Positions 41,005 through 52,420 of a stretch of DNA of 64,000 bases are shown here, piece after piece. The position numbers and the translations under genes are program-made. Positions within the stretch are counted from its first letter, which is position 1; each line of letters opens with the position of its first letter. Origin of the DNA: Paenibacillus amylolyticus (GTDB taxonomy: Bacteria > Bacillota > Bacilli > Paenibacillales > Paenibacillaceae); the NCBI RefSeq assembly GCF_001570725.1, contig NZ_BCNV01000001.1:682001-746000 (forward strand), given 5' to 3'. Under the pieces are notes generated by a model. That model was given only the letters and a program-made list of their open reading frames with translations. It ran no database searches and was not told the origin of the DNA.

Positions 41005-41472
41005 ATGGCTTTACACATCGTTCTGGTTGAACCAGAAATTCCGGCGAACACAGGCAATATTTCGCGTACTTGTGCGGCGACCGGCACCCATCTGCATCTC
41101 GTGCGTCCACTTGGATTTCGAACAGATGATGCTACATTGAAACGGGCAGGGCTGGATTATTGGCATGCCGTTCATATTGAATACCACGACTCATTCGAAG
41201 AGGTTCAGGAGAAGTACTCGGAAGGTCGTTTCTTCTACGCAACTACGAAGGCCAAGAATCGATATAGTGATTTTAAATTTCAAGATGGGGATTTCCTTGT
41301 CTTTGGTAAAGAGACTAAAGGCCTGCCGCCTGAATTAATTGCTGCGAATCCCGACACATGTATGAAAATGCCAATGACTGGTGACGTTAGATCATTAAAT
41401 CTGTCCAATTCGGCAGCAATTATTGTGTATGAAGCATTGCGCCAGCTTAATTTTCCGGGGTTAGAGGGTTAA
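41005..41472 (+). CDS. trmL: tRNA (cytidine/uridine-34-2'-O)-methyltransferase TrmL
   Basis: 155 residues of the SPOUT class, the minimal TrmL/CspR form. Conserved blocks are VLVEPEIPANTGNISRTCAATG (motif 1), LVFGKETKGLPPELI and MPMTGDVRSLNLSNSAAIIVYEALRQL, which make the knotted SAM site. It methylates the 2'-O of the wobble nucleotide in tRNA-Leu isoacceptors. AAAAGGAGA precedes ATG 41005. Confidence 0.96.
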   Translation: MALHIVLVEPEIPANTGNISRTCAATGTHLHLVRPLGFRTDDATLKRAGLDYWHAVHIEYHDSFEEVQEKYSEGRFFYATTKAKNRYSDFKFQDGDFLVFGKETKGLPPELIAANPDTCMKMPMTGDVRSLNLSNSAAIIVYEALRQLNFPGLEG

Positions 41473-41554
41473 ATTCGGGTTATTAATGACGGCTAGAATT
41501 CGGTAAAAAAACATTTTTCAAAAAAAAGGACAAAAAATGTTTATTTCCAGCAGG

Positions 41555-41566
41555 ATTCGACAAAAT
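41555..41566 (-). promoter_or_regulatory. Consensus Spo0A (0A) box
   Basis: On the minus strand this reads ATTTTGTCGAAT, matching the 0A box core TGTCGAA. It overlaps the -35 region of the AbrB-like gene. A poorer relative (TTTTTTGTCC) lies at about 41528-41537 on the same strand. Confidence 0.6.
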
Positions 41567-41583
41567 GTTGGCGAATCTATAAA
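41556..41583 (+). promoter_or_regulatory. Candidate promoter of the AbrB-like gene
   Basis: TTCGAC (41556) and TATAAA (41578), 16-nt spacing. The inverted repeat GTACAAATGTAC at 41588-41599 lies just downstream. Confidence 0.5.
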
Positions 41584-41639
41584 CATAGTACAAATGTACC
41601 TAGAAATTTAGAGTAAGATAGGAGAGGTGTGCCGTAGCT

Positions 41640-41894
41640 ATGAAGCCAGCTGGAGTAGTTCGCAAAGTTGACCAATTAGGTAGGATCGTATTGCCTAAAT
41701 CTTTGCGTAAAAGGTATCAAATGAATGAGGGAGATCCTGTAGAGATCTTAGTACAAGGGGACCATATTATCTTGGAGAGATATCGTCCAAAATGTATTTT
41801 CTGCGGATCCATCGAGGAAGTCAACGAGTTCAAAGAGCGTTACATATGCGCACAATGTTTAGATGAAATGACTCAGCTTCCACAGCACGGGTAA
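41640..41894 (+). CDS. AbrB-family regulator with C-terminal zinc-ribbon-like motif
   Basis: 84 residues. Positions 1-50 (KPAGVVRKVDQLGRIVLPKSLRKRY...EGDPVEILVQGDHIILERYRP) match the AbrB swapped-hairpin DNA-binding domain, including the basic surface residues. Instead of the AbrB C-terminal multimerisation domain it has Cys52-x2-Cys55 and Cys70-x2-Cys73, spaced like a zinc ribbon. It probably represses post-exponential genes as a dimer. RBS AGGAGAGGTG. The upstream 0A box suggests Spo0A control, as for abrB in B. subtilis. Confidence 0.88.
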   Translation: MKPAGVVRKVDQLGRIVLPKSLRKRYQMNEGDPVEILVQGDHIILERYRPKCIFCGSIEEVNEFKERYICAQCLDEMTQLPQHG

Positions 41895-41900
41895 GAAATA

Positions 41901-41938
41901 ACGTCATGGGGTCCATTGACCCCGTGGCGTTTTTTTTT
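41901..41938 (+). terminator. Terminator after the AbrB-like gene
   Basis: CATGGGGTC-CATT-GACCCCGTG with flanking ACG/CGT pairs and T8 or more. Confidence 0.9.
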
Positions 41939-51355: not shown

Positions 51356-52420
51356 TTATTTGTAAAATAAAAAGTGTGTGGGTACCGGTCTGAGGCTGCC
51401 ATCTGAAGGGTTATTCACAACCCGATTATTCAGAATAAGCGAGGAAGATCCACCGCCATCCAGATTATAGGCGTCGATGACCCCAAGCTTGTACAACCGT
51501 CCTTGCAACTCTTCAAGGGTAGCACCGGAACTTCCACCCTCATTATATCCGTCGACCACAATGATCAATAACTGGTCGTCTTTATAATTGCCAATGACTG
51601 TACGTGGCGCTCGTTTGGGTGATACCTTCCACTTGGCGGGAATCGCGGTTTTGCGCCCATTCTGTAGTAGTACCGGCACAAAGGTAGCCCCGAATTGCGG
51701 TTGCAGGCGATCCAGGGAGTTTTTGTCGAAGAACTTGCCTCCGACCAGCTTGCCGGCATCATTAAGTCCTACAAAGAACAGATCTTTGAAACTGGCCTGA
51801 AAACCATTCACGTATTTCCCGTCCATGACGGTGGTGCTGAGCGGATAACGTTTGCCACCACTGTCAGCAAATCCCCCTGCATTGATCCCGGCAATTGCAC
51901 CGTTACGTTTCACAGCCTGCATGGTCGTCTCAGATCGTCCAGGTTCGCTGTCTAGAGCCATCTGCATGGCCGTGGGATCTTTAAGCTTAATCTTCATGGC
52001 ATAGCCCTTATAGCTGCCAGGATTGACTCTATACATTTCAATTGTCAATCGGTCACTGTCTACCCGTTCAAATGGAACGCCCAGCTTGGCCGAAATCCGC
52101 TTGTTATAAATGGTTTCTGGGCGATCCGCCTGAGCAGTAGCCTTCTGCACAAGTGTAGACATCGTACTCGTTGTTTTATTATAGAGCTGCGTCGTTCTTT
52201 TAATAGAAGAAGAAGTTTGGACAGCAGCGTCTTTAGCCCCTGCAAGCTCTTGGCTAATTGCTTGGGTCCGGGGTGTAATCGTATCCTCTGACAGTTCGGC
52301 AGGAATCAAACCTCCGGGTTCAAGTGGAGGACGAAGCAGCAGCAGGCATAATATCAATCCAACAAAAGGAGCGAGTGCAAGCATAAAAAAACGATTAACC
52401 TGTTTGACGGGTGTAATCAT
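51356..52420 (-). CDS. Phosphodiester glycosidase (NAGPA-domain) protein, membrane anchored
   Basis: 354 residues. An N-terminal anchor or signal (NRFFMLALAPFVGLILCLLLL) precedes a Ser/Thr-rich linker, then a NAGPA/DUF2233 domain from about 130: AIAGINAGGFADSGGKRYPLSTTVMDGK, KDQLLIIVVDGYNEGGSSGATLEEL, and the signature YNLDGGGSSSLILNN. Paralogue of the protein at 7088. Its start overlaps the stop of the coiled-coil gene (ATGA), so the two are coupled and may work as a pair at the wall. Confidence 0.88.
   Translation of the reverse strand: MITPVKQVNRFFMLALAPFVGLILCLLLLRPPLEPGGLIPAELSEDTITPRTQAISQELAGAKDAAVQTSSSIKRTTQLYNKTTSTMSTLVQKATAQADRPETIYNKRISAKLGVPFERVDSDRLTIEMYRVNPGSYKGYAMKIKLKDPTAMQMALDSEPGRSETTMQAVKRNGAIAGINAGGFADSGGKRYPLSTTVMDGKYVNGFQASFKDLFFVGLNDAGKLVGGKFFDKNSLDRLQPQFGATFVPVLLQNGRKTAIPAKWKVSPKRAPRTVIGNYKDDQLLIIVVDGYNEGGSSGATLEELQGRLYKLGVIDAYNLDGGGSSSLILNNRVVNNPSDGSLRPVPTHFLFYK

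Follow-up and report, generated by a model that had tools for sequence, protein, structure and literature searches.

AbrB is a model transition-state regulator whose multimerisation domain is known mainly in its Bacillus form. In B. subtilis AbrB, residues 54-94 make up the tetramerisation part, for which C54, N64, L67 and the last residues are needed; this C-terminal domain, AbrB_C, is composed of β1-2 and α elements, and C54 is essential in it (PMC4022651). The same cysteine is conserved in all AbrBs compared in a second study, which reports a DNLKLAGGKL stretch as missing in Clostridia (PMC9598496). The word zinc is absent from the text of both articles, and a literature search by title and abstract opening found no zinc site in AbrB; an earlier statement is possible in the AbrB_C structure paper or in the Yao and Strauch domain paper. 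In P. polymyxa SC2, Spo0A is described as activating abh and repressing abrB3, two genes for AbrB-domain proteins whose promoters bind Spo0A and whose products bind the polymyxin promoter (PMC10782996).

The gene analyzed here lies in a 64,000-nucleotide stretch of Paenibacillus amylolyticus DNA (the window), in a host genome of 6.76 Mb (15 contigs) with four AbrB-domain proteins above cut-off. The locus is organized as follows, in window coordinates:

41005-41472, plus strand: TrmL-like tRNA methyltransferase ORF, the 5' neighbour (from the ORF list)
41550-41558, plus strand: SigH-like -35 element GCAGGATTC, with conserved AGGA-GAA spacing
41556-41564, minus strand: exact match to the 0A box, TTTGTCGAA, overlapping the end of the -35 element and the spacer; its core reads TTCGACA at 41556-41562 on the plus strand
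41570-41578, plus strand: SigH-like -10 element GGCGAATCT, N11 from the -35 element, the same spacing as in the host spo0A promoter
41620-41628, plus strand: ribosome binding site AGGAGAGGT, read from the sequence and largely kept in the upstream alignment
41640-41894, plus strand: ORF of the AbrB paralogue, 84 aa, ATG start, stop included (from the sequence and the ORF list)
41640-41792, plus strand: AbrB swapped-hairpin DNA-binding domain, residues 1-51 (Pfam, TIGR01439 and PDB matches)
41793-41879, plus strand: treble-clef-like tail, residues 52-80 (invariant cysteines and a tail-only AlphaFold model)
41793-41795, 41802-41804, 41847-41849 and 41856-41858, plus strand: cysteine codons of the tail
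41900-41931, plus strand: strong intrinsic terminator with a stem of 14 pairs and a T run behind it (from the sequence)

A preliminary description of this DNA had the feature begin at 41555; that span takes in the 0A box, while the gene itself begins at 41640. With B. subtilis AbrB (PF04014 plus PF18277) the protein shares the N-domain family, the position of the tail, a cysteine at the place of the first tail cysteine and a presumed regulatory link to Spo0A.

By its N-terminal domain the window protein can be assigned to the AbrB/SpoVT-AbrB family, and DNA binding is predicted. PF04014 matches residues 7-51 with 42.5 bits (cut-off 24.7) and TIGR01439 residues 8-49 with 42.7 bits (cut-off 28.3), and this half also matches the N-domains of AbrB, Abh and SpoVT in the PDB, so the AbrB-type DNA-binding half recognized earlier is borne out. 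Arginines R8, R15, R23 and R24 have been identified as DNA-contacting (PMC4022651); the first three are invariant in a 76-sequence alignment of proteins with the cysteine tail, and the position of R24 is K24 in the window protein. Across 80 orthologue loci, the best 80 of 377 relatives picked by exact peptide patterns, residues 1-52 (41640-41795) are identical in 79. When seven of these orthologues were compared, the N-half showed 0 amino-acid changes against 22-34 synonymous codon changes, and tail codons 53-79 showed 4-10 amino-acid changes. Since the relatives were found by exact peptide patterns, this freezing of the N-domain is somewhat overstated. Given the frozen DNA-binding half, the targets of the protein are probably many or demanding.

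The gene itself has a narrow distribution. Proteins 100% identical to it occur in Paenibacillus sp. SZ31, OVF10 and LS1, P. xylanexedens DE0301 and P. polymyxa ISL-58. Within the order of Paenibacillus, Paenibacillales, the paralogue was matched in 141 of 149 sampled genomes at E ≤5.8e-33 and in 143 of 149 at E 1e-22. A sample of 200 genomes of the class gave 18 matches at E 1e-26, namely all 17 sampled genomes of the family and one other, the sole match outside the family, with 57% identity to the window protein. Judged by these searches, the window gene is an AbrB paralogue limited, within the sampling, to the order of Paenibacillus. In 79 of the 80 orthologue loci, a same-strand homologue of the 5' neighbour, a presumably TrmL-like ORF, ends upstream of the gene (more than 600 bases off in two); no such homologue was found in the remaining one, L032.

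An assignment of the window gene as the abrB orthologue was rejected, as the same genome holds a better candidate (L002) and the window gene adjoins the trmL-like ORF. L002 encodes a protein of 83 or 84 aa whose N-domain is near-identical to that of AbrB in the PDB, and it lies near an ORF that is presumably rsmI-like, in keeping with the gene order of B. subtilis. It has the same C-x2-C-x14-C-x2-C tail as the window protein and a similar length, as do the ribbon-tailed AbrBs of Bacillota generally, but differs in locus (rsmI-like against trmL-like neighbour) and in N-domain sequence. In the host genome the motif is borne by L002, by the window gene and by L003 (P0003, 1135-1650, minus strand), a 172-aa AbrB-ribbon-HTH protein by Pfam; SpoVT (L001) is the fourth AbrB-domain protein. 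In P. brasilensis KACC 13842, the ten AbrB-domain ORFs read above cut-off comprise one SpoVT and nine proteins with the motif by eye, an eleventh match lying below the cut-off and outside the count. Seven of these ORFs (L283, L285-L290) have, by eye, a C-terminal HTH-like part. Proteins of this AbrB-ribbon-HTH type share the AbrB domain and the ribbon with the window protein but are longer, owing to the added C-terminal part; they end in a SQ[GA]R[VI]SQ-type sequence, and four of the P. brasilensis ORFs lie within about 67 kb.

The tail of the window protein carries Cys52, Cys55, Cys70 and Cys73 in the arrangement C-x2-C-x14-C-x2-C. The motif is present in 80 of the 80 orthologue loci, and none of the four cysteines varies across the 76 rows of the ribbon-protein alignment, which, like a smaller one of 46 rows, is a subset of the ribbon proteins found, with Bacillus-type and coil-type tails excluded. 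The conserved CxxC-x14-CxxC tail of the preliminary description therefore stands. A Pfam scan of the tail gave no family above cut-off and sub-threshold zinc-ribbon matches, the best being DZR_2 at E 0.0015. AlphaFold2 modeling of the full protein reached a mean pLDDT of 82.7, and the tail-only model reached 90.4, with a hairpin (15-18/21-24 in tail numbering) and a helix (25-32). In this predicted model the cysteines stand at 6, 9, 24 and 27, the helix starting just past the third and including the fourth. Two conserved CxxC knuckles in 80 of 80 loci, together with a hairpin and a helix at the second knuckle in the predicted models, are what a treble clef comprises, and this name fits the predicted tail better than zinc ribbon. 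The tail looks like a zinc-binding fold, and a bound zinc is predicted.

In fold searches with the 38-residue tail model, Foldseek returned no match at E 0.001. The top VIA-align row was 2ds5, titled ZBD (Z 4.5, rmsd 3.5, 38 aligned), and the ZBD-titled 2ds8 followed with Z 4.3, rmsd 2.0 and 36 aligned; both were tied with ribosomal chains, some of them named uS14, and all Z values were low. Z values of this size speak for arrangement alone. We take 2ds5 and 2ds8 to be the zinc-binding (dimerisation) domain of ClpX, which resembles the tail as a small zinc fold and differs from it in being attached to an unfoldase; common descent is not claimed. The full-protein model matched 9a4b, itself an integrative model, and 2mjg (AbrB_C) was not among the fold-search matches listed for either the full or the tail model, an absence that carries no weight either way. 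With ribosomal chains among the nearest folds, one could also see in the tail a zinc ribbon that touches nucleic acid and would contribute to DNA specificity, not to multimerisation. We consider this quite improbable, because the top row, despite the tie, is a presumed dimerisation domain, and because nearly all amino-acid changes fall in the tail while the DNA-binding half is frozen.

To place the tail in a wider context, Bacillota genomes were searched with a tail-only profile built from 46 rows with four invariant cysteines. It matched 232 of 299 sampled genomes at E 1e-6, an AbrB domain ahead of the match not being confirmed case by case. A full-length AbrB query matched 270 of the 299 at E 1e-8 and 174 of the 200 genomes of the class, both counts including N-domain-only and SpoVT matches. 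In the 299-genome sample, none of six same-class genomes outside the Paenibacillus family was matched by the tail profile; in the class sample, full-length AbrB matches also occurred outside the family, for example in G317, G326 and G347, with 83-88% identity over at least 80 residues. Among 85 AbrB-domain loci that were read, 62 had the motif, always with x14, and 23 did not. These 23, which came from 30 genomes chosen mostly for low scores, all have Bacillus-type tails with exactly one cysteine each. The ribbon tail is thus not exotic but a common state in the sampled phylum, and the Bacillus tail, though well studied, is the exceptional one.

The same breadth bears on the idea that the cysteines form a metal or redox switch, in which loss of zinc or formation of a disulfide would turn the regulator off. 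In its favor, 80 of 80 orthologues keep the four cysteines where the multimerisation site lies, and the C54Y mutant of B. subtilis AbrB is defective in DNA binding (PMC4022651). Matches to the motif in 232 of 299 sampled Bacillota genomes suggest a structural role instead, a purely structural zinc site would be expected to conserve the cysteines and their spacing just as well, and the 23 Bacillus-type AbrBs do without three of the four residues. Moreover, the cysteines are the sole positive evidence for a sensor, and among the neighbouring ORFs at 34-50 kb of the window none was seen by eye to be obviously metal- or redox-related. A switch of this kind is accordingly very unlikely in our judgement.

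Phage-borne AbrBs offered forms that stand between the two tails. Among 80 viral or prophage loci kept for the L002 query, 65 carried the ribbon, and two viral scans with overlapping contigs yielded 68 distinct proteins with the ribbon, 11 with a CxxTG tail and 13 of other kinds. Seven of the 11 CxxTG tails (L321-L327, all distinct and phage-borne) have the length of the ribbon with cysteines 2-4 replaced: CxxTG takes the place of the first knuckle, S stands at Cys3 in 7/7, and A, V or G stands at Cys4. A further phage AbrB (L340) has a CxxC...CxxH tail, a possible C3H zinc site. A third type of tail, coil-like by eye and without cysteine, was observed on other phage AbrBs (L261, L265-L267, L269, L272, L374, L377-L379 and others).

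The tails alone were then compared by hhalign as four sets, comprising 119 ribbon, 7 intermediate, 27 Bacillus-type and 12 coil sequences, with L340 and viral ribbon proteins longer than 110 aa excluded; the E-values given are those of single comparisons rather than of a database search. In local mode, ribbon and intermediates aligned with Prob 96 and E 4.3e-9, and intermediates and Bacillus tails with Prob 95.5 and E 1.6e-8, and 0 of 100 column-permuted controls reached the score in either case. Global alignment was weaker, with Prob 88 for ribbon and intermediates and 56 for intermediates and Bacillus tails, again with 0/100 controls each. Compared directly, ribbon and Bacillus tails gave Prob 0.3 in local mode, with 21 of 100 permuted controls as high, and in global mode 17 of 100 controls were at or above the score (Prob 0.4 in a separate comparison); this direct comparison was not significant and counts against kinship. 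The coil tails showed no hhalign similarity to the ribbon, intermediate or Bacillus sets. The alignment registers concur: the single cysteine of Bacillus tails falls on Cys1, TG on CG and GK on GK. PF18277 (AbrB_C) gave no match in the window tail up to E 5 and none in the one phage intermediate scanned. The Bacillus-type AbrB tail, in contrast to the unrecognized window tail with its four cysteines, lacks Cys2-4 and is recognized by PF18277 with 67.8 bits.

The simplest reading of these comparisons is that ribbon, intermediate and Bacillus tails may be one domain in three states, joined by a transitive link. The alternative is that the ribbon tail and AbrB_C are unrelated, that the Bacillus line swapped its domain and that the shared cysteine arose by chance. 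Such a swap would fit the lack of direct profile similarity, and the coil-like third tail on phage AbrBs implies that tails do get exchanged. We nevertheless regard it as unlikely, as ribbon-length intermediates link both tails with local E-values of about 1e-8 and in concurring registers. A single domain in three states remains our preferred reading; on its side there is also the hairpin plus helix predicted for the ribbon tail, beside the β1-2 and α elements described for AbrB_C. The preliminary description had the tail stand instead of the AbrB multimerisation domain; this is not supported, since the tail occupies the same place, is linked to AbrB_C, though through intermediates only, and is the common state in the sampled phylum. 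Through that link, the ribbon tail is probably a metal-bearing form of the multimerisation domain. Because the ribbon state is broad, we infer that the direction was metal loss rather than gain. We lean towards the view that the multimerisation domain known from textbooks is a former zinc treble clef whose metal was lost, that most Bacillota keep the zinc protein, that in B. subtilis AbrB the first ligand survives as Cys54 and that phage AbrBs preserve a halfway state.

The region upstream of the window gene was analyzed in the gene and its 80 orthologues, 81 regions of which the 77 distinct ones were counted. SigH promoters follow the consensus RnAGGAwww-N11-12-RnnGAAtww, and the window promoter, GCAGGATTC-N11-GGCGAATCT, fits it. 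All 77 regions show AGGA and then GAA at N16-18, with N17 in 73 and GAAT at N17 in 43. The TTCGACA core (TGTCGAA on the other strand) is present in 70 of the 77; the seven regions without it belong to six Saccharibacillus loci and L087. Among 18 representatives with flanks less than 60% alike, AGGA was kept in 18 and TTCGACA in 16, against a mean top-base frequency of 0.55 outside the motif. The final base of the -35 element is C in the regions that keep the box and A or T in those that have lost it (GAAGGAATT, GCAGGAAAT, GCAGGATTA), the latter in agreement with the SigH consensus; competition of two overlapping sites for this base would produce such a pattern.

Taken singly, neither element stands out in the window. 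The SigH-like score of the promoter is reached, with a -35 element at least as good, at 47 places, the promoter itself included (31 and 16 by strand), and the exact 0A 9-mer occurs twice where 0.94 copies are expected, a number reached in 22 of 100 shuffles. The second copy (51722-51730), inside an ORF at 51356-52420 on the minus strand, is probably due to chance. It is conservation, not the exact 9-mer match, that gives the box its weight. No site was found by a SigA-type promoter scan between 41472 and 41640. The pattern AGGAWWYGACA was also tried as a regulon signature in the host genome and set aside as too weak, since it gave 29 matches where the backward control gave 19.

Both presumed regulators are encoded by the host (Spo0A, 417 bits; SigH, 371 bits). 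Upstream of host spo0A lies a SigH-like promoter, GGAGGAATT-N11-GTCGAAAAT, whose two ends carry TGTCGAA boxes, and upstream of spoIIAA lies GCAGGAAAA-N12-GTAGAAATC. The spo0A promoter resembles the Ps promoter of B. subtilis spo0A, in which the -10 element is overlapped by box 0A4 (PMC12090719). The window gene carries a conserved SigH-like promoter and a putative Spo0A box, and its dependence on either factor is predicted. A Spo0A-type box in the promoter, as proposed earlier, is supported by the core in 70 of 77 regions and by the presence of Spo0A; the proposed echo of the abrB promoter is not. In the window gene the promoter is SigH-like and the box lies between its elements, whereas host abrB (L002) has a SigA-like promoter, TTGACT-17-TATGAT, with AATGTCGAATAATGACA between promoter and gene. 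The P. brasilensis abrB counterpart has a promoter layout like that of L002, the arrangement expected of Spo0A repression. TGTCGAA-like boxes (GATTCGACACG, TTTGTCGAATA, AATCGACAAAG) were also seen clustered upstream of the abrB promoter, at L002 1210-1300.

As to the sign of this control, that Spo0A represses the window gene rather than activates it is a guess that leans modestly to repression. The box sits within the core promoter, from which occlusion would be expected. Activation by Spo0A~P, which has been reported for P. polymyxa SC2 abh, is a reading that we do not favor but hold to be quite possible. In that strain Spo0A binds P-abh, and abh drops in the spo0A mutant (PMC10782996); in B. 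subtilis, spo0A has a SigH promoter that is activated through box 0A3 (PMC12090719). The precedent is weakened by the likelihood that abh is not the orthologue of the window gene. The SC2 locus tags are PPSC2_03710 for abh and PPSC2_00125 for abrB (PMC7931354), so that, if tags rise by 5 per gene, some 0.85 Mb would separate the two. The corresponding distances from abrB in P. brasilensis are 1.64 Mb for the window orthologue and 0.70 Mb for L288, an AbrB paralogue with an HTH tail. The distance for abh is nearer to that of L288, so abh is probably not the window gene, and the identification of SC2 abh with the window orthologue was dropped because locus tags and map positions disagree. Neither TTCGACA nor TGTCGAA occurs in the 250 bases upstream of L288, which makes this argument from map position a tentative one.

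Together, these observations suggest an order-wide AbrB paralogue with a zinc tail that joins dimers and a SigH promoter tuned by Spo0A~P, an explanation that, as a whole, we consider fairly likely. Two N-halves would form the swapped-hairpin DNA-binding dimer. The tail, with its two CxxC knuckles in a treble clef, would wrap one structural zinc and assemble dimers into the active higher multimer, the job done in Bacillus by the zinc-free AbrB_C. The SigH-type promoter would transcribe the gene, which would thus be switched on at the transition out of growth. Spo0A~P would bind the box in the core promoter and tune the gene, the most likely effect at high Spo0A~P being repression through occlusion of the promoter. 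In B. subtilis, SigH rises once Spo0A~P represses AbrB (PMC12090719), so the window gene would be on while abrB goes off. We hypothesize that the outcome is a hand-over between AbrB-type regulators with different DNA-binding halves.

The ribbon tail belongs to no Pfam family above cut-off in our scans, yet its profile was matched in 232 of 299 sampled genomes. With its conserved SigH-like promoter and Spo0A box, the window gene would be a node at which action of both regulators can be tested. If the Bacillus form is a metal-free derivative, AbrB would be a case of metal loss with surviving intermediates, which would explain why Cys54 is essential. The common form of the phylum would then be a metalloprotein, and this, if true, would bear on sporulation and on solvent and antibiotic production in Clostridia and Paenibacillus.
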